Source: Bacteroidota bacterium
GTDB lineage: Bacteria; Bacteroidota; Bacteroidia; Flavobacteriales; Flavobacteriaceae
Reading direction: 5' to 3'
Assembly: GCA_029561105.1 (NCBI GenBank)
Contig: JAKQJQ010000223.1
Coordinates: 1-39,570 of the forward strand
Length of the DNA: 39,570 bases
A program made the translations under genes and the position numbers. Numbering within the stretch: the stretch's first letter is position 1; each line of letters starts with the position of its first letter. The notes under the pieces were generated by a model. The model was not told the origin of the DNA and searched no databases. It worked only from the letters and a program-made list of their open reading frames with translations. This document shows, in pieces, positions 29,815 to 38,379 of the stretch.

Positions 29815-30225
29815 TTAGCAAAAATCGTTGAATGCGTCTTTTAAGTTGTCGGCGATGAGCTCTGCCGGACGCCCTTCAATGTGATGGCGCTCGAGCATGT
29901 GTACCAATTCACCATCCTTGAACAACGCGATACACGGTGATGACGGCGGAAACGGGAACATTGATTGTCTCGCAGCATCTACGGCCTCTTTGTCTACACC
30001 GGCAAAAACCGTAGCCAAATGGTCTGGTTTTTTAAGGTTTTCTAAACTCATTCTGGCGCCCGGGCGTGCATTTCTGGCGGCGCAACCGCATACCGAATTC
30101 ACAACCAGTAAGGTGGTGCCCGGTTTGGCAAGCGCATTTTCTACGGCACCGGCGCTGTATAATTCTTCGAAACCCGCATCAGCCAGTTCGGCACGCATGG
30201 GGATTACCATTTCTTCTGGATACAT
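29815..30225 (-). CDS. BrxA/BrxB-type bacilliredoxin
   Basis: The 136-residue protein has a thioredoxin-like fold with the CGC motif in VVNSVCGCAARNARP (Cys46, Cys48), and the segment FPPSSPCIALFKDGELVHMLERHHIEG typical of the YphP/YqiW family. Bacilliredoxins remove bacillithiol from mixed disulfides with proteins in the cytoplasm. Its presence suggests that this organism makes bacillithiol, as many flavobacteria do. It is a single gene with its own terminator. Confidence 0.9.
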   Translation of the reverse strand: MYPEEMVIPMRAELADAGFEELYSAGAVENALAKPGTTLLVVNSVCGCAARNARPGARMSLENLKKPDHLATVFAGVDKEAVDAARQSMFPFPPSSPCIALFKDGELVHMLERHHIEGRPAELIADNLKDAFNDFC

Positions 30226-30335: not shown

Positions 30336-32606
30336 TTACGGCAACTTGTAACGCAGCCCCAAAAATCCACGGATTCCCTGGTTGGGTGCATAAATATACG
30401 TCGTGTCGAAAGTAAGTCCAAAAGGATTCAGAGGTGTTGCCAATACCTGGCCGTTTGCGCCGTAAGCAACGTTTTTGTCAAATGGGTCCTGGCTGCGCGC
30501 AATCAGGAATGGGTTGTTTTTCATGGGTGTAAAGTCGAGCAGGTTCTTCACGCCGGTAAACAGCTCGAAATCTCTAAAACCGTGATAGGTGAACTGTATG
30601 TTTTGCAGGCTGTACCATGGCGAATCCGGGCTGCGCGGATCAAGCGCTCCCAAAAGTGGCAACTTCATTGGGCTGTAGAGGTTTCCGGTGTAATCGATAC
30701 TCAATTTGATGGCATCGATTTTATAGGAAACAGACCAGGTTCCGGTGAATTTTTCGGTGAGCAGTTGGCGTTCGCGGCGGCCGTTTTCTACGGTATAAAC
30801 ATCCATATAGGTGGCGCCTGCAATAACTTTAATACCATTGCGGAAGTTGACATCTAAGTTTGCTGTAATGCCCTGACTGATTGAATAGCCATCGAGGTTG
30901 TCGTAAATAATCTTATTGGGATCGCGGGTGTAATCGGCAATGATCTTGTTGCTGAAACGCGTATAAAAAAGCGAGGTCTCGAGATTGACGATTGTGCCGT
31001 TGCCTACATACATCTTGTTCAGGTAATTCAGGTTGGCATTTATCGTTTTTTCTGGCCGCAGCGCACTTTGGATCACCACTTCGCGCGATCCGGTGAGCGC
31101 CGCATGGTCTTCGGTAAAAAGATTCACCACACGAAAGCCCGTTCCCGCATTGAGCCGCAGGATATTGTTGTCATTAATTTTGTATTTGTGCGCGAGGCGA
31201 GGCGTTAGAATATTCCCGTGGATCGAATTGTAATCATACCGCAAACCCAAAAGCAGCAGGTGTTTTTTCCCCAGTCCGATTTCATCCTGGATGAAAATTC
31301 CGGGCAACCAAGTTTTTTTGGCGTGGTTGCGGTTTCCCGATGCAGTTGCGGGTGTATTGTCATCGTAATAAGTGTAACGCGACGCGAAGCCAGAAAGCAA
31401 ATCGTGGCGTTTGATTTTTTTGTCCCAGGTAAGTTGCACGAAACCCACTTTTTGGTTGGCGAGGTAAGCCGTTGTGCCGTATCGGCTGTCCTGGAAATGG
31501 AGGTTGCCCGAAAACGACAGCATTAATTTTTCGTAGGTCGGCATTTGGTAATTCCCGAATATTTCGCCGCGTTTGGTGTAAATACTTTCCCCGTAAATGA
31601 CATCGCCGCCGCGGTATTTTTTTCCCCAACGGATATCGCCGCCCCAACGGTCTTCGTACATGCCGCGCAGGCCGATGTTAAAAACCCTGTTGTTTTTCCT
31701 GTTGAAGCTCACTTTGTGGAAGATTGAAATCCGATCCTGTAAGCTAAGGTCGGTAAACCCATCCTTGTCATTATCGATGACCTCACTGTTCCTGAAATAG
31801 TTGACACCAATCAAGGCATCTCCGATTTTTCCCAAATGGTATTTCAGCCCCAAATCGGTGTTGGTCTCGAGCCAACTCGTCATAAGAAATTCGGCCGAAA
31901 GTTGTGGTGCGGTAAACGGCGTTTTGGTGATGATGTTGATGAGTCCGCCCATGGCTTCACTTCCGTATAAAGAAGACGCAGGGCCTTTTACGATTTCTAT
32001 TCTTTCTACGAGCGAATTGGGTATGCCCGAAAGCCCGTAAACCGTAGAAAGACTACTCACTATGGGCATGCCGTCAATAAGCACAGCGGTATAAGGGCCT
32101 TCGAGCCCGTTGATGTGGATGTCACCCGTGTTGCATACGCCACAATTGAGTTGCGGCCTTACGCCGTTGACATTTTGCAGCGCATCGAAAATATTGGGAA
32201 CCGGATTTTTTTTAAAGAATGTGGGGCTGTACACTTCTACCGGGACCGGACTTTCCATTCGCCTAACCGATTTTAAGGTTCCCGAAACCACGATTTCGTT
32301 GAGTGTGTTTGCGTTGGATTGAAGTTTCAGGTCGAGTACCACTGGGGTGTTTGCGATTCGTATGGTTCTTTCAATATTTTCGTATCCGGGCGCGTTGACA
32401 GCTAGTTGGTGGTTGCCCGTCGTTAAACTCGAAAAGGTATAATTGCCCAGGCTGTCTGTTTGGGTTTTGTATAGTCGGTCTATGACCACGAGGATTTGGC
32501 TTATCGGCCGACCATCGTGGGATATGATTCCTGAAAGCGAGATTTGGTTTTGCGAAAATCCCGTAGAGGACAGCATCATAAAATAAAAAACAAAACGATT
32601 TTTCAT
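30336..32606 (-). CDS. TonB-dependent receptor, probably for a metal or metal complex
   Basis: The start at 32606 gives 756 residues with the signal peptide MKNRFVFYFMMLSSTGFSQ; the longer frame runs back through the promoter. A carboxypeptidase-regulatory-like domain (about 22-100, ISLSGIISHDGRPIS) precedes the plug, which has the pattern LNCGVCNTGDIHINGLEG, VLIDGMP, IVKGPASSLYGSEAMGG. The 22-strand barrel ends in LGLRYKLP. The ligand is not given by sequence. The gene is divergent from an Nramp transporter, close to a metal-dependent repressor, and has a possible operator over its promoter, so iron or manganese is the best guess. It transports across the outer membrane. Confidence 0.9.
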   Translation of the reverse strand: MKNRFVFYFMMLSSTGFSQNQISLSGIISHDGRPISQILVVIDRLYKTQTDSLGNYTFSSLTTGNHQLAVNAPGYENIERTIRIANTPVVLDLKLQSNANTLNEIVVSGTLKSVRRMESPVPVEVYSPTFFKKNPVPNIFDALQNVNGVRPQLNCGVCNTGDIHINGLEGPYTAVLIDGMPIVSSLSTVYGLSGIPNSLVERIEIVKGPASSLYGSEAMGGLINIITKTPFTAPQLSAEFLMTSWLETNTDLGLKYHLGKIGDALIGVNYFRNSEVIDNDKDGFTDLSLQDRISIFHKVSFNRKNNRVFNIGLRGMYEDRWGGDIRWGKKYRGGDVIYGESIYTKRGEIFGNYQMPTYEKLMLSFSGNLHFQDSRYGTTAYLANQKVGFVQLTWDKKIKRHDLLSGFASRYTYYDDNTPATASGNRNHAKKTWLPGIFIQDEIGLGKKHLLLLGLRYDYNSIHGNILTPRLAHKYKINDNNILRLNAGTGFRVVNLFTEDHAALTGSREVVIQSALRPEKTINANLNYLNKMYVGNGTIVNLETSLFYTRFSNKIIADYTRDPNKIIYDNLDGYSISQGITANLDVNFRNGIKVIAGATYMDVYTVENGRRERQLLTEKFTGTWSVSYKIDAIKLSIDYTGNLYSPMKLPLLGALDPRSPDSPWYSLQNIQFTYHGFRDFELFTGVKNLLDFTPMKNNPFLIARSQDPFDKNVAYGANGQVLATPLNPFGLTFDTTYIYAPNQGIRGFLGLRYKLP

Positions 32607-32621
32607 TAGAGTAAATAAAAT

Positions 32622-32658
32622 TTTAGACAAAACTAAATTTTTTATTTCATTAATCAAA
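32622..32658 (-). promoter_or_regulatory. Receptor promoter with overlapping palindromic operator
   Basis: On the minus strand TTTG (32658-32655), 19 bp, TAGTTTTG (32635-32628) is an ideal Bacteroidota promoter. The palindrome TTTAG-6 nt-CTAAA (32622-32637) lies across the -7 box. It is a candidate site for the DtxR-type repressor at 34769, which is inference. Confidence 0.6.
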
Positions 32659-32668
32659 TTTCAAATTT

Positions 32669-32676
32669 TATATTTG
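32669..32676 (+). promoter_or_regulatory. Candidate -7 box of mntH
   Basis: TATATTTG fits TAnnTTTG exactly, 15 nt before the ATG at 32692. It shows that the TTG at 32674, inside this box, is not the start codon. Confidence 0.55.
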
Positions 32677-32691
32677 TTTAAAATTGGGACT

Positions 32692-34560
32692 ATGAGCAAA
32701 TCTTTAGAAGAGGTACACGAGTCGGTTGCTACCCAGAATAAAACCACGGTGTTCAGGAAAATTCTCGCCTTTTTTGGTCCGGCTTATCTGGTGAGCGTGG
32801 GCTATATGGACCCTGGAAACTGGGCCACCGATATCGCTGGCGGAAGCCAATTCGGTTACGCCTTATTGTGGGTGCTTTTGATGAGCAATATGATGGCGCT
32901 GCTGCTGCAAAGCCTCAGTGCGCGCTTGGGCATCGTTACGCAGCGTGATTTGGCGCAGGCTTCGCGCGAAACGTATTCTAAATTCATCAACTACATTTTG
33001 TATTTCCTGGCCGAAATTGCCATCGCCGCCTGTGACCTGGCCGAAGTCCTGGGAATGGCGATTGGGATCAACCTGTTGTTTGACATCCCGCTTATTGAAG
33101 GCGTGATGATTACCGTACTCGACACTTTTCTTTTATTGTTCCTGATCAACAAAGGCATCCGTAAGATGGAAGCTTTCATCATCACTTTAGTGAGCATCAT
33201 TGGGATCTCCTTTATTTTCGAGATGATTTTTGCCGAACCCGAAATGGGCAAAGTCGTTGCCGGACTCATCCCGTCTATGCCCAACAGCGCGGCGCTGTAC
33301 ATCGCCATCGGAATCATCGGCGCCACGGTGATGCCACACAATTTATACCTGCATTCGTCGCTGGTGCAGACGCGCAAATTCGACCGCAGCAAAGCGGGTA
33401 TCAAACAAGCGCTCAAATACAACCTCATTGACAGCACCATCGCCCTGAATCTCGCTTTTTTTGTCAACGCCGCCATCCTGATTTTGGCCGCCGCCACCTT
33501 TTACAAAAACGGAATGTTTGAAGTGGCCGAAATTCAGGATGCGCACCAGTTCCTACAACCGTTGCTGGGCACCAAATGGGCGCCCATACTATTTGCCGTG
33601 GCGCTGATTGCCGCAGGGCAAAGCTCTACAGTGACCGGTACGCTTGCCGGACAGATCATCATGGAAGGTTATCTCAACCTGCGCATCCAACCTTGGGTAA
33701 GGAGAATCTTAACCCGATTGATTGCGATTGTCCCTGCCGTGATCGTGATATCGTATTTCGGAGAAAGCGTCACGGGAAAACTCTTGATTTTGAGCCAGGT
33801 GATCCTTTCGCTGCAACTGGGTTTTGCCATTATCCCGCTAATCCACTTTGTGAGCGACAAATCCAAAATGGACGGGTTCGAGATTGGACGCCTTACCAGA
33901 ATCGCTGCCTGGACCATCGCCTCGATTATCGTTACGCTCAATGCCAAGTTGGTTTTTGATGAAATCAACGGCTGGCTCGACACTTCAGAAAACCCGATGG
34001 TATTGTGGTTGACGGTCGTTCCGCTTGCGGGAGGATTCTTGATTTTATTGTTGTACATCGTATTCAAGCCATTTTTCACAGAGGAAAAACCATCCATAGC
34101 GAACCATTCACCACACCACTTTGCGCTCAAATTTTCAACCGGAAATTACCACAAGAAACACATTGCCGTCACGGTAGATTTTTCTGAGGCCGATGAAAAA
34201 GCGCTGCAACACGCCATCGATTTGGGAGGGAAAGACGCCCACTACACCCTGATTCATGTCGTGGAAACCGTGGGCGCGATTGTTTACGGCAGCAGTATCA
34301 AAGACCATGAAACCACGGTAGACGAGCAATTGCTTTATGAATATACCCGTTTGTTGTCAGACAAAGGCTTTTCGGTACAAACCCAACTCGGTTTTGGCAA
34401 ACCCGGAAAGGCCATCGCAAAAATCATCAATGAAGGCCAGTTCGATCTGCTCATTATGGGCACACACGGTCACGGCAATTTCAAGGATTTGATTTTCGGA
34501 ACCACTGTTGGCAGCGTACGTCACGCGGTTTCTATACCTTTGTTTATTATTAAGAATTAA
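32692..34560 (+). CDS. mntH: Nramp divalent metal transporter with C-terminal universal stress domain
   Basis: The start at 32692 gives 622 residues. Residues 20-460 are an Nramp (MntH) proton-coupled Mn2+/Fe2+ importer with 11 or so helices. The metal-binding motifs are intact: DPGN at 40-43 (VGYMDPGNWATD) and MPHN at 214-217 (ATVMPHNLYLHS). Residues 488-622 form a universal stress protein domain with the nucleotide-binding pattern GTHGHG, 9 residues, GT (Gly590, Gly593, Gly603). Nramp-Usp fusions are known in Bacteroidota; the Usp part may tune transport. It is divergent from the TonB receptor, with the repressor gene downstream on the same strand. Confidence 0.94.
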   Translation: MSKSLEEVHESVATQNKTTVFRKILAFFGPAYLVSVGYMDPGNWATDIAGGSQFGYALLWVLLMSNMMALLLQSLSARLGIVTQRDLAQASRETYSKFINYILYFLAEIAIAACDLAEVLGMAIGINLLFDIPLIEGVMITVLDTFLLLFLINKGIRKMEAFIITLVSIIGISFIFEMIFAEPEMGKVVAGLIPSMPNSAALYIAIGIIGATVMPHNLYLHSSLVQTRKFDRSKAGIKQALKYNLIDSTIALNLAFFVNAAILILAAATFYKNGMFEVAEIQDAHQFLQPLLGTKWAPILFAVALIAAGQSSTVTGTLAGQIIMEGYLNLRIQPWVRRILTRLIAIVPAVIVISYFGESVTGKLLILSQVILSLQLGFAIIPLIHFVSDKSKMDGFEIGRLTRIAAWTIASIIVTLNAKLVFDEINGWLDTSENPMVLWLTVVPLAGGFLILLLYIVFKPFFTEEKPSIANHSPHHFALKFSTGNYHKKHIAVTVDFSEADEKALQHAIDLGGKDAHYTLIHVVETVGAIVYGSSIKDHETTVDEQLLYEYTRLLSDKGFSVQTQLGFGKPGKAIAKIINEGQFDLLIMGTHGHGNFKDLIFGTTVGSVRHAVSIPLFIIKN

Positions 34561-34568
34561 TTTTTAGG

Positions 34569-34726
34569 AGCTAATCCCGCTATACGTTGCAATCTTTTTT
34601 GCTCACATTCCCTTCCAGCACTTTTTGTCATTGCTTCGCCAGTTCGGCTAACGCCTCGGGTCCGACGCAGGAGGAATCTCATAGGGCAACAGCAAAAAAG
34701 GATTTCCACTGCTATCGGGGCTAGCT
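34569..34726. repeat. Nested palindromic intergenic element, copy C
   Basis: It begins AGCTAATCCCGCTATACG and ends CTGCTATCGGGGCTAGC, the reverse complement of copy A's arms. Inner arms GCAATCTTTTTTGC and GCAAAAAAGGATTT enclose a longer core from GTCATTGCTTCGCCAG to GGAGGAATCTC. The core has the same orientation as in copy A although the arms are reversed. Confidence 0.8.
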
Positions 34727-34768
34727 TTCACCCTGAACCTTTCACCCTTAAACCCTGTAACCTTTAAA
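34725..34768 (+). repeat. Degenerate tandem repeat directly before the mntR start codon
   Basis: Three diverged units, CTTTCACCCTGAAC, CTTTCACCCTTAAAC and CCTGTAACCTTTAAA, fill 34725-34768 and end at the ATG. The setting is like the 7-bp array that abuts the hemE start. Confidence 0.6.
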
Positions 34769-35422
34769 ATGACCCTCTCAGAAGAAAATTACCTCAAAAC
34801 CGTCTACCATCTCACCGGCGTATCCGACGGCGAAGTGAGCACCAACGCCATTGCCGAGATGATCGAGACCAAAGCCTCGTCGGTGACCGATATGCTCAAG
34901 AAACTTGCCGAGAAAGGCCTGGTCAACTACAAGAAATACCAAGGCGTTTCACTCACCGATAGCGGCAGGTTGTCGGCCAAGATGATTGTGCGCAAACACC
35001 GGTTGTGGGAAGTGTTTCTTGTGGAGAAGCTCGATTTTGCCTGGGATGAGGTACATGACATCGCCGAGCAGCTCGAGCACATCAAATCAGAACAGCTCAT
35101 CAACAAACTCGATGATTTCCTGGGAAATCCTACCCAGGATCCGCACGGAGACCCGATTCCCGACCGTCATGGCAAGATTGCCAAAACCGAGAAAATGCTG
35201 TTATCAGAACTCCTGAAGGACCAAAGCGGTTTGTGTGTGGGCGTCAAGGATTCGTCTGCCGAATTTTTAAAATACCTCGACAAGAACCAGATTGCGTTGG
35301 GCTCGCGGATTGAAGTGGTGTTAAAAGAAGATTTTGATGCGTCGATGAAAATCAGGGTAGGGACAAACGAGATTGTGATTTCGAGTAAAATCGCGGGCAA
35401 TCTTTTTGTGAAGAAGGTTTGA
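34769..35422 (+). CDS. DtxR/MntR-family metal-dependent transcriptional repressor
   Basis: The 217-residue protein has an N-terminal winged helix (MTLSEENYLKTVYHLTG ... TKASSVTDMLKKLAEKGLV), a dimerisation/metal-binding domain (VRKHRLWEVFLVEKLDFAWDEVHDIAEQLEHIKSEQ-type helices, then DPHGDPIPD) and a C-terminal SH3-like domain. It would bind Mn2+ or Fe2+ and repress metal uptake genes. The likely targets are near: the receptor/mntH promoter region and feoA. Sequence alone does not tell manganese from iron preference. It is downstream of mntH, with a palindromic repeat and a short repeat array between them. Confidence 0.93.
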   Translation: MTLSEENYLKTVYHLTGVSDGEVSTNAIAEMIETKASSVTDMLKKLAEKGLVNYKKYQGVSLTDSGRLSAKMIVRKHRLWEVFLVEKLDFAWDEVHDIAEQLEHIKSEQLINKLDDFLGNPTQDPHGDPIPDRHGKIAKTEKMLLSELLKDQSGLCVGVKDSSAEFLKYLDKNQIALGSRIEVVLKEDFDASMKIRVGTNEIVISSKIAGNLFVKKV

Positions 35423-35439
35423 GATGCGTAACTTTCGCT

Positions 35440-35838
35440 ATGAAAAAATTATTCCCACTACTATTTTTGCTGCTAAGCCTGACGATTTCGGCACAAACTA
35501 CGGCAGAAAAAATCCACTACAAAACCATCACCCAAACCGAATGTGTCAAAAAGAAAGGCTACCGTTTGGTCTTGAAACAAGTGGTTTCGGACTCGCGTTG
35601 CCCAGAAGGCGTGACTTGCGTTTGGGCAGGCGAAGTCAGTTTTGTAGTATCGGTATACAAGGATAAAAAATTTGTGGAAGATGTTACTTTCTCGTCTGCC
35701 AACCGCGAGCAAAACCTCGAACTGTTTTCAAAATATCTGGGAAAGAAAGTGACCTCAGTCGGTGTTTTACCTTACCCGAAACAGGGCGTTAGTGTAGACC
35801 CGAAAAGTTATGTTTTAAAAATCGGTTACACCCGATAG
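35440..35838 (+). CDS. Small secreted protein with a CPEGVTCVWAGE motif
   Basis: The start at 35440 gives 132 residues with the signal peptide MKKLFPLLFLLLSLTISAQ. A longer frame from 35419 would overlap the repressor gene. The mature part is beta-rich and contains DSRCPEGVTCVWAGEVSF, a conserved-looking motif with two cysteines. Similar small periplasmic proteins occur in Bacteroidota, but I do not know a function. Only 17 nt separate it from the repressor, so it is probably co-transcribed and could have a link to metals. Confidence 0.8.
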   Translation: MKKLFPLLFLLLSLTISAQTTAEKIHYKTITQTECVKKKGYRLVLKQVVSDSRCPEGVTCVWAGEVSFVVSVYKDKKFVEDVTFSSANREQNLELFSKYLGKKVTSVGVLPYPKQGVSVDPKSYVLKIGYTR

Positions 35839-35854
35839 TTGGCAATCCCACTGA

Positions 35855-35977
35855 TCAGTGGCAACCGCAATCGCCTTCTCCACAATTTTTTTCGTTCTTC
35901 TTTTTCCAAAGAAATTTGCGTACCAAAAAGAAAATGGCGGCCGCTAAAATAATATAAGCGAGAATTTCCTGTACCAT
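35855..35977 (-). CDS. FeoB-associated Cys-rich membrane protein
   Basis: The 40-residue protein starts MVQEILAYIILAAAIFFLVR, one transmembrane helix, then a lysine patch and the end KNCGEGDCGCH with three cysteines and a His. This is the FeoB-associated Cys-rich type (FeoC-like in position, not in fold). It overlaps the feoB stop by one base (TAATG). The Cys tail may bind iron or a cluster on the cytoplasmic side. An upstream in-frame start at 36103 would lie inside feoB and is not used. Confidence 0.88.
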   Translation of the reverse strand: MVQEILAYIILAAAIFFLVRKFLWKKKNEKNCGEGDCGCH

Positions 35978-38079
35978 TATTTTAGGATTTGATAAGTGAC
36001 CAGCGCCACGAGATACGCCAAGCCGCTCATCAAAACCAACTGGGTGGCAGGCCATTTCCAGCTGTTGGTTTCTTTTTTGGTGATGGCCAAAGTACTGGCG
36101 CATTGCATCGCGAAAGCATAAAACAGCAAAAGGGAAATTCCGGTGGCGAAATTGAATACCTTTTGCCCAGTGTCGGGATGTATTTCTGTTTGCATCTTAT
36201 TTTTGATGGTGTTTTCGTTGTCGGTATCGCCCACGCTGTAAATGGTAGCCAGAGTTCCTACAAATACTTCGCGCGCCGCAAACGAACTGATCAGCGCAAT
36301 ACCGATTTTCCAGTCGTAACCCAAAGGTGCAATCGCGGGCTCAATGGCTTTTCCCATGATTCCGATATAAGAGTTTTCTAGCTTTTGCGAGGCGACGGCA
36401 TTTTCAAAATCGGTGGCCGACAAAGGCTCCGAAAGGTGCTGCGCAGCTACGATCTGATCGGCATGATGGAACGCATTTCCGGGGCCGCTCGACGCCAGAA
36501 ACCACAATACGATCGAGATGGCAAGGATGATTTTACCCGCGCCCCAAACAAAGGCCTTTGTTTTCTCGAGCACATTGAGCGATACGTTCTTGAACATCGG
36601 CAATTTATAACCCGGCATTTCCACGACAAAATACGTCTTGCCATTGATTTTTAGGATTTTGTTGAGGAGGTAAGCCGCCACAATCGCCGTCCCAAAACCG
36701 ATGAGGTAGAGCAGCATCAAGGTCAAACCCTGCAGGTTCAGGATGCCCAACACGCGTTTTTCGGGAATAACCAAGGCAATGATGATGGCGTACACGGGCA
36801 ATCGGGCAGAGCAGGTCGTGAATGGCGTAACCAGTATGGTAATGAGACGCTCTTTCCAGTTTTCAATGTTTCGGGTGGCCATGATGGCCGGAATGGCGCA
36901 GGCCGTACCCGAAATCAGCGGCACCACACTTTTGCCTGACAGCCCAAAACGGCGCATGATTTTGTCCATGAGGAAAACCACGCGGCTCATGTAACCGCTT
37001 TCTTCGAGCATAGAAATGAACAGGAATAAAAACGCAATCTGCGGGATGAAAATGACAATACCTCCAATTCCCGGAATGATGCCCTGCGCAATCAAATCGG
37101 TGAGTACGCCGGCCGGCAAATGTTGTGCGGCCAGCGTACTCAGGGAAGCAAACGTACTGTCTATAAAATCCATGGGTACGGCAGACCATGAAAAGATCGA
37201 TTGAAAAATCACAAACAGTATCGCAAAGAAAATGGCGTAGCCCCAAACTTTATGCGTGAGGATTCGGTCGAGTTGTATCCTAAAATCTTTGGCTGTCGCA
37301 AGGTTTATTTTTTGTCCGTCTTTCAAGACCTCATTGATGAATTGATACCGTTTGATGGTTTCCTTTTGCTGGATTTTTTTGAGTTCGGTCTGTGATCTGG
37401 TGTAGGAGTTCCTTATTTCGTTTCGGTCTAGTTGCGCGAAATTGACATCCTGGGTGATGACCAGCCAAAGTTTGTAGAGCAATTGGTTGGGAAAGGTTTT
37501 GCGAAGGCGGTTGAAATATTCGGGATCTATAATCGATGCGTTAAGACAGGGTTCGGTAGGTAGCGATTGATACGCGACAATAAGTTTCTTCAATTCGTCA
37601 ATGCCGGTTCCCTTGCGCGAGCTAATTACCGCAATTTTGGTTTTGAGCTGCGCTTCGAGGTAAGGCACATCGAGCGAAATACCTTTGGCGCCCATACGGT
37701 CGGCCATATTGATGACCAATATCGTTGGGATCTCGAGGTCTTTGATTTGCGTGAAAAGCAATAAGTTGCGCTTGAGGTTTTCTACGTCGGCGACAACGAG
37801 AACGACATCGGGATAGAGTTTGTCGTTTTTATTGAGCAGCATTTCAATCACGACATTTTCATCGATTGAACTCGCATTGAGGCTGTAAGTTCCGGGTAAA
37901 TCCAGGATGTTGGCCTTAATGTTATAGGGCAGTTTGCAAAATCCGATTTTTTTCTCGACGGTAATTCCCGGATAATTGCCCACCTGTTGGTTGAGCCCGG
38001 TCAATTGATTGAAAACAGAGGTCTTTCCCGTATTCGGGTTGCCAATCAATGCCACATTGATGTTCTTGGTGCTGGTCAT
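35977..38079 (-). CDS. feoB: Ferrous iron transporter B
   Basis: FeoB imports Fe2+ across the inner membrane. The 700 residues have an N-terminal G domain with G1 GNPNTGKTS (13-21), NYPGIT (35-40, G2), DLPG (60-63, G3) and NMAD (124-127, G4), then a helical GDI-like part (about 165-260). The membrane part has the two Gate regions, including VVPLISGTACAIPAIMATRNIENW and SFAAREVFVGTLATIYSVG. It lies in the operon feoA-feoB-Cys-rich gene and overlaps feoA by 4 nt (ATGA) and the next gene by 1 nt. Confidence 0.96.
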   Translation of the reverse strand: MTSTKNINVALIGNPNTGKTSVFNQLTGLNQQVGNYPGITVEKKIGFCKLPYNIKANILDLPGTYSLNASSIDENVVIEMLLNKNDKLYPDVVLVVADVENLKRNLLLFTQIKDLEIPTILVINMADRMGAKGISLDVPYLEAQLKTKIAVISSRKGTGIDELKKLIVAYQSLPTEPCLNASIIDPEYFNRLRKTFPNQLLYKLWLVITQDVNFAQLDRNEIRNSYTRSQTELKKIQQKETIKRYQFINEVLKDGQKINLATAKDFRIQLDRILTHKVWGYAIFFAILFVIFQSIFSWSAVPMDFIDSTFASLSTLAAQHLPAGVLTDLIAQGIIPGIGGIVIFIPQIAFLFLFISMLEESGYMSRVVFLMDKIMRRFGLSGKSVVPLISGTACAIPAIMATRNIENWKERLITILVTPFTTCSARLPVYAIIIALVIPEKRVLGILNLQGLTLMLLYLIGFGTAIVAAYLLNKILKINGKTYFVVEMPGYKLPMFKNVSLNVLEKTKAFVWGAGKIILAISIVLWFLASSGPGNAFHHADQIVAAQHLSEPLSATDFENAVASQKLENSYIGIMGKAIEPAIAPLGYDWKIGIALISSFAAREVFVGTLATIYSVGDTDNENTIKNKMQTEIHPDTGQKVFNFATGISLLLFYAFAMQCASTLAITKKETNSWKWPATQLVLMSGLAYLVALVTYQILK

Positions 38080-38318
38080 TGAAGCGTGATGGTTAAGGGA
38101 TCGATTGCTATTTCACGCGCGGTTTCTAAACGGATGGCCAAATGCGAGCCATTGATGTTGAGGTAAAGCGGATCGCCCAAAGGCGCAACCTGCAAGACTT
38201 CTACGAGGTTTCCCGGCAAACAACCCATCTCAAGCAATTTGAGTGGAATGGCCTCGACGTCAAAATCCCTGATGACGGCTTTCTCCCCTTTTTTTAAACT
38301 GGCAATGGTTTGGCGCAA
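38076..38318 (-). CDS. feoA: Ferrous iron transport protein A
   Basis: The 80-residue SH3-like protein has LEMGCLPGNLVEVLQVAPLGDPL and YLNINGSHLAIRLETAREI, the typical FeoA pattern. It is the first gene of the feo operon and its stop overlaps the feoB start. FeoA acts at the membrane with FeoB. The region before it has a -7 box inside a palindrome, so it is likely to be metal-regulated. Confidence 0.94.
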   Translation of the reverse strand: MRQTIASLKKGEKAVIRDFDVEAIPLKLLEMGCLPGNLVEVLQVAPLGDPLYLNINGSHLAIRLETAREIAIDPLTITLQ

Positions 38319-38325
38319 CGCTTAT

Positions 38326-38353
38326 TTAGATTGAATTAAGATTACAAATCTAA
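38326..38353 (-). promoter_or_regulatory. Candidate feo promoter with overlapping palindrome
   Basis: On the minus strand TAGATTTG (38352-38345) fits TAnnTTTG. It lies in the inverted repeats TTAGATT (38326-38332) / AATCTAA (38347-38353) and AGATT-ACA-AATCT (38339-38351). The string TTAGnTTTGT is shared with the receptor promoter. No clear -33 box. Confidence 0.5.
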
Positions 38354-38379
38354 GGATAAAAAAGCAATCTTACCGCGAT

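Follow-up and report, generated by a model that had tools for sequence, protein, structure and literature searches.

Several described systems lie close to the one considered here. PgMntR of Porphyromonas gingivalis is a DtxR-family manganese regulator of the Bacteroidota that, in the available text of PMC4805248, binds the promoter of a manganese transporter but not the promoter of FB1, an iron transporter. DR2539 of Deinococcus radiodurans is a DtxR-family repressor of mntH acting via an inverted repeat (accessible part of PMC3327659), and in Stenotrophomonas maltophilia a TonB receptor regulated by MntR carries the signature CQNC in its plug (PMC13217887, in its available sections). Here we analyse a 39,570-nucleotide stretch of DNA (hereafter the window) from a member of the Flavobacteriaceae, contig JAKQJQ010000223.1 of the 3.7 Mb draft genome GCA_029561105.1, in which genes for a TonB-dependent receptor, the Nramp transporter MntH, a DtxR-family repressor (MntR) and FeoAB are neighbours. 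A conserved inverted repeat lies between the receptor gene and mntH, and we consider it highly probable that there are two adjacent metal circuits, with MntR acting at the receptor/mntH operator, and a separate operator at feoAB that is most likely bound by Fur. We found no description of an MntR or DtxR box for these bacteria in the open-licence literature, so far as it was searched; the element is a new predicted operator for an already known kind of regulator.

Promoters of the Bacteroidota type have a -7 box of consensus TAnnTTTG and a -33 element TTTG. The promoters below were assigned by comparison of the sequence with this consensus, and the elements and genes on which the argument depends are as follows.

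30336-32606, minus strand: TonB-dependent receptor (Pfam), with a CxxC (C155, C158) in the plug by alignment
32622-32637, between receptor and mntH: predicted MntR operator TTTAGACAAAACTAAA (TTTAG-N6-CTAAA), from conservation and a matrix score of 22.9
32628-32635, minus strand: putative receptor -7 box TAGTTTTG, within the operator
32655-32658, minus strand: putative receptor -33 element TTTG, 19 bp from the -7 box
32669-32676, plus strand: putative mntH -7 box TATATTTG, 31 bp beyond the operator
32692-34560, plus strand: mntH, Nramp transporter with a universal stress protein domain (Pfam; NCBIfam NF001923 over cut-off)
34769-35422, plus strand: mntR, repressor of the DtxR family containing a single FeoA domain (Pfam; best NCBIfam match MntR, below cut-off)
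35977-38079, minus strand: feoB (Pfam and TIGR00437 over cut-off)
38076-38318, minus strand: feoA, with a TTG start (Pfam FeoA; open reading frame (ORF) list)
38322-38343: conserved feo element TTATTTAGATTGAATTAAGATT (minus strand AATCTTAATTCAATCTAAATAA), a probable Fur site, from conservation of AxTCTAAATAA and retention in drafts lacking MntR
38345-38352, minus strand: putative feoAB -7 box TAGATTTG

The predicted operator is an inverted repeat, perfect in both arms, that overlies the receptor -7 box and stops 31 bp short of the mntH -7 box. Its conservation was analysed in 127 loci, comprising the window, 46 loci from relatives and 80 from named records, mostly labelled Flavobacteriaceae. 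In 120 of these the exact box, with a spacer of 6, lies no more than 200 nt from whichever gene leads the mntH/mntR unit; a spacer of 7 was seen once, as was one of 8, and no other length between 2 and 11 was found. Within the window and the 46 relative loci the exact box is found upstream of 27/29 receptor genes, 18/22 mntH genes and 25/47 mntR genes, while dinucleotide-shuffled upstream sequences gave no more than 0.05 exact matches for any of these sets. The two receptor matches that lack the box are distant homologues (25-28% identical), the corresponding mntH genes are second genes behind mntR, and the mntR genes are either second genes behind mntH or belong to other families (L088-L091). 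The box is kept whether mntH or mntR leads the unit, and also where there is no divergent receptor (e.g. L047 and L058). In the mnt orientation its consensus is TTTAG-(A/G)-C-W-W-R-N-CTAAA-AA, and in the 117/120 loci where a -7 box in that direction was found it starts 24-32 bp past the operator in 102.

An initial annotation of the window had proposed that a repressor site overlies the receptor -7 box, with the adjacent DtxR-type gene encoding its natural regulator, and the conservation in orthologous promoters strongly supports this on the receptor side. On the best reading, the sequence at 32622-32637 is very likely the binding site of the MntR whose gene lies at 34769-35422. From its position it would also be placed to control mntH, a point absent from that annotation.

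A scoring matrix was constructed from 85 distinct boxes, leaving one out in turn for the true sites, and gave scores of 15.5 to 29.8 for these; the receptor/mntH site of the window scores 22.9. The bare pattern TTTAG-N6-CTAAA occurs seven times in this genome, and the narrower pattern TTTAGNYWWRNCTAAA was no commoner than its backward control across 41 genomes of the same genus (1 versus 1 in this genome). Since the pattern is not rare genome-wide, the case for the operator rests on its place and its conservation. A scan of the genome returned nine boxes with one mismatch in addition to the exact site, and none was accepted; six lie within predicted ORFs, and the three that are intergenic have no obvious metal gene beside them. 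In the relatives 17 loci with extra exact boxes (L152-L168) were inspected among the matches listed. Two of them (L164 and L167) represent the canonical locus, about 11 boxes fall inside predicted ORFs, and those of L156 and L168 lie in terminator-like repeats. Two others are credible candidates for further MntR targets. The box at L152:4000 lies between divergent genes, for a Rieske protein and look-alike neighbours, and that at L159:4002 lies between a di-haem oxidoreductase/Rieske/porin-like operon and divergent genes for DUF6660 and an RND pump.

The repressor scores over the cut-off for the DtxR families PF01325 and PF02742. The NCBIfam MntR equivalog NF047407 is its best match, yet below the cut-off (153.6 against 350 bits). 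It was the one DtxR homologue seen in the genome, and its closest named relatives, among the top matches, are from Flavobacterium, so that we take the source to be Flavobacterium-like. Among solved structures its nearest neighbours are regulators of the DtxR family (5zr4, 8pvt, ScaR and SloR). Of these, 8pvt is annotated as a putative iron-dependent repressor, and we take it to be DR2539, which is thus related to the window MntR in sequence as well as being an mntH repressor, although it comes from another phylum. Of the 127 repressors, 126 retain the ligand motif E-x-x-E-H; the metal-ligand position in the first helix (residue 7) is Asn in 121 and Asp in 6, with Asp in two aligned relatives. 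The manganese-type ligand pattern, given in part in PMC4805248, is a first-helix Asp followed by Glu-x-x-Glu-His. PgMntR resembles the window protein in being a Bacteroidota manganese regulator of this family that contains FeoA domains, but it has two of them where the window MntR has one, its metal ligand Cys108 is replaced by Glu here, and its target is FeoB2 rather than mntH and a receptor (PMC4805248, in the text available). Its selectivity for a manganese- over an iron-transporter promoter, as described there, is in line with the division between manganese and iron proposed for this locus.

The initial annotation had reported two related strings, and both were found where it placed them: TTTAGTTTTGTCTAAAA at 32621-32637 for the receptor and CCTTAGATTTGTAATCTTAA at 38336-38355 for feo, each on the minus strand. 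Each contains TAnnTTTG (TAGTTTTG and TAGATTTG respectively) and so overlaps a -7 box, and the DtxR-family gene is indeed encoded between them. With its TTTG, the receptor TAGTTTTG would make a good -7/-33 pair. The claim that the two strings share a palindrome held for one of them. The receptor string has the perfect 5+5 repeat with its 6-bp spacer, but that of feo is not the same palindrome; it has the pair AGATT/AATCT around 3 bp, a geometry unlike that of the receptor. This pair occurs in 2/68 feoA promoters, the window and L046 (1/67 of the others), and is thus not conserved. Most of the TTAGnTTTGT that the two strings have in common is -7 consensus, and among the 68 promoters it is present in that of the window alone. 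We do not regard the two strings as one shared operator. The feo string is best read as the putative -7 box TAGATTTG, the portion that resembles the receptor string, abutting by chance a different conserved element.

For that element the analysis took the 68 loci, out of 127, that gave a FeoA match. TTTAG-Nk-CTAAA, for any k from 2 to 11, is found in none of the 68 promoters, whereas AxTCTAAATAA is present in 65. In Flavobacterium the element usually has the form TTCAATCTAAATAAG, lying between the -7 box and the start codon. The MntR matrix scores the feoA promoters between -14.9 and 6.4, well apart from the true boxes, although training on exact arms inflates this gap; the best score for the feo promoter of the window (-0.1) falls on the neighbouring conserved element at 38322-38343. 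The apparent start codon of feoA is TTG (38316-38318) in the window and in many relatives. Of the 62 feoA promoters that have a recognised -7 box (62/68), 24 carry a palindrome TGA-N6-TCA (e.g. TGATAATTATCA) upstream of that box, always at the same distance from it, for example in L060, L080 and L222. This palindrome resembles an activator site of the FNR/CRP type near -40, and is not present in the feoA promoter of the window.

The feo element is probably a Fur site. For Riemerella anatipestifer a Fur box ATTTAGAATTATTCTAAAT was shown with gel shifts (PMC5609570, as far as its available text goes), and a near-identical box appears in the accessible part of PMC10986502; a classical Fur box is cited for the same species in the portion available of PMC7976709, so the literature is not uniform. 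The feoAB genes of Riemerella are under Fur control, their expression rising 4- to 5-fold when fur is missing; it is raised by 1 mM MnCl2 as well, which is contrary to manganese-dependent repression (PMC10434265, from the text at hand). Riemerella belongs to the same order as the organism of the window, and to the family Weeksellaceae; its box has the half-sites TTTAGA/TCTAAA, of which the feo element here matches one perfectly and the other in degenerate form (comparison with the available text of PMC5609570, PMC10986502 and PMC10434265). In 66 cases the element could be aligned on TCTAAA, and 64 of these match the Riemerella 19-mer at 13 to 16 positions, where the alignment itself fixes six of the 19, and 13 matches are reached by 13% of random sequences built around the same TCTAAA. 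The genome contains one Fur-family gene, over the Pfam cut-off, whose best NCBIfam match is the ferric uptake regulator, below cut-off. A loose Fur-like pattern occurs 19 times on both strands of this genome, compared with 5 for the backward control, but across seven genomes the counts of Fur-like palindromes against control are mixed, and no regulon is claimed from them. Single Fur-like matches before the TonB receptors of L192, L197 and L215 are anecdotal, as is an element of the feo type, TTTTAATTCAATCTAAATAAA, observed at L169:1736 before a DUF4856/imelysin operon downstream of mntR in the genome G036.

Relatives that lack MntR bear on both elements. No MntR was detected in 4/36 relatives of the same genus (G014, G026, G028 and G035), and the best receptor match in each is 24-26% identical. 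The feo element is retained in all four, and is thus separate from MntR. In G026 mntH is present, with no mntR in the surrounding 16 kb, and the 150 nt in front of mntH are free of the box. In G028 mntH is too close to the end of the contig for its upstream region to be judged, and within the stretches read of G014 and G035 there is no mntH. The joint loss of box and MntR therefore rests on one informative promoter.

There are a number of points that weigh against two separate circuits. The four genomes without MntR are drafts, 88-92% complete, of which just one has a readable mntH upstream region. The 127 loci are related and in part redundant, may contain a species twice, and hold 85 distinct 22-mers. 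The exact box is missing in seven units (L088-L091, L257, L258 and L261), with L257 and L261 having it with one mismatch. Coverage of the receptor -7 box is not general, because 61/120 boxes contain no TAnnTTTG on the receptor strand. The median MntR-matrix score of the feoA promoters (-0.7) is above the 95th percentile of shuffled sequences (-1.6), which we attribute to the single TCTAAA half-site shared by the feo elements; MntR may bind weakly at feo. Lastly, a 17-bp Fur-like palindrome is clearly above its backward control in one of seven genomes (G022, 20 versus 11).

The initial annotation had envisaged a single operator of MntR or another DtxR-type repressor common to the receptor and feo promoters, lying over the -7 boxes of both. 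The TAnnTTTG under both strings, the half-site retained in the feo elements with its above-shuffle scores, and a left arm with one mismatch at spacer 6 in 11/66 of them would all fit with this, but given the absence of the two-armed box from all 68 feoA promoters, the rarity of the feo palindrome, the low matrix scores and the retention of the element without MntR we regard a shared operator as very unlikely, and reject it. Alternatively the box might be real but read by another regulator such as Fur, with MntR a bystander. The genome has a Fur-family gene, and the Riemerella Fur consensus, in the sources as available, has the same half-sites TTTAG and CTAAA, though separated by 7 rather than 6. 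The attachment of the box to mntH/mntR units with a spacer of 6 in 120/127, and its absence upstream of mntH in G026, which has no detectable mntR (fur was not looked for in that genome), argue for MntR, and we think reading by another regulator unlikely. It might also be that there is no operator, and that an AT-rich -7 context is palindromic by chance, as could be suggested by the genome-wide frequency of the bare pattern, by the narrower pattern being no commoner than its control, and by the TAnnTTTG inside 59/120 boxes. However, both arms are kept in the 61 that lack it on the receptor strand, and shuffling almost abolishes exact matches, so chance seems extremely improbable.

On our preferred reading, of MntR at the receptor/mntH operator and a separate feoAB operator, MntR, probably loaded with Mn(II), would bind TTTAG-N6-CTAAA in the divergent promoter. 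On the receptor side it would cover the -7 box and thereby block RNA polymerase; on the mntH-mntR side its place would be next to the -33 region, 31 bp ahead of the -7 box. We infer that binding leads to repression, so that when manganese is sufficient a single operator would shut down manganese uptake at both outer and inner membranes, together with mntR itself. The feoAB genes would have their own operator around the start of transcription, and we infer that Fur is the regulator that most likely binds there.

The receptor may be part of this manganese circuit. A CxxC near residue 155 in the plug is present in all 79 distinct box-associated receptors, counted by plug core (113 ORFs including duplicates), while among 20 box-less receptors in these loci just L257 has one, and its box has one mismatch. 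The receptor of L255 has CNVC. L256 was set apart from the box-less examples; it is the rear part of a frame-broken receptor and carries CNIC. Since the loci were gathered around mntR or motifs, the tie between CxxC and box is an association within the sampled loci. An alignment of 27 receptors from two lineages that are about 25% identical shows no variation at C155 and C158, and in an AlphaFold model (mean pLDDT 80.4; 62 in this block) these cysteines lie in a loop between plug strands 149-153 and 161-165. Cysteine is an unusual manganese ligand, so the cargo may be either manganese itself or a chelate. CQNC or CQTC is found in 15/79 of the distinct receptors, forming one lineage; the receptor of the window is about 25% identical to this, with CGVC at the aligned place. 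We also considered whether the CxxC is exclusive to receptors regulated by MntR, and it is not. Of ten receptor loci in genomes without MntR, four from outside the genus, in other families (L360, L361, L362 and L366), have CQNC and no box; the other six, including all five of the same genus, have no CxxC. In L360 (genome G037) the CQNC receptor stands next to a gene with a weak resemblance to Nramp that scores below the family cut-offs.

The Stenotrophomonas module is similar in having a receptor beside mntR/mntH, a predicted MntR box, a CxxC plug and a thioredoxin-fold gene after the receptor; its box, located between -10 and -35, is a palindrome of 25 bp, where that here is 16 bp and in the window overlies a Bacteroidota -7 box (PMC13217887, in the parts available). 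A thioredoxin-fold gene directly follows 40 of the 85 box-associated receptors with enough sequence, duplicates kept (e.g. L167:6374-6835). There is none behind the window receptor, where a bacilliredoxin-type gene is found instead. The remaining features of the window are listed here.

29815-30225: bacilliredoxin-type gene, following the receptor
35440-35838: small protein that matches no Pfam or NCBIfam family
35855-38318, minus strand: block of a FeoB-associated Cys-rich protein, feoB and feoA
listed after feoA: SCO1/SenC gene

As a tentative and rather doubtful extension, MntR and Fur of the Flavobacteriaceae, which are unrelated, might read the same half-site TTTAGA/TCTAAA and be told apart mainly by spacing (N6 for manganese, N7 for iron), with the manganese arm driving a TonB receptor of the CxxC-plug type, in two distant lineages, as a dedicated outer-membrane gate for manganese. 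In any case the MntR and Fur boxes, as predicted, have near-equal half-sites, which raises the question of specificity. The analysis provides a concrete operator and a small predicted manganese regulon for a large environmental family, and distinguishes probable manganese and iron circuits at a locus where both are neighbours. It also points to a candidate class of outer-membrane manganese receptor, associated with the box and having a CxxC plug, that echoes the MntR-regulated receptor of Stenotrophomonas.

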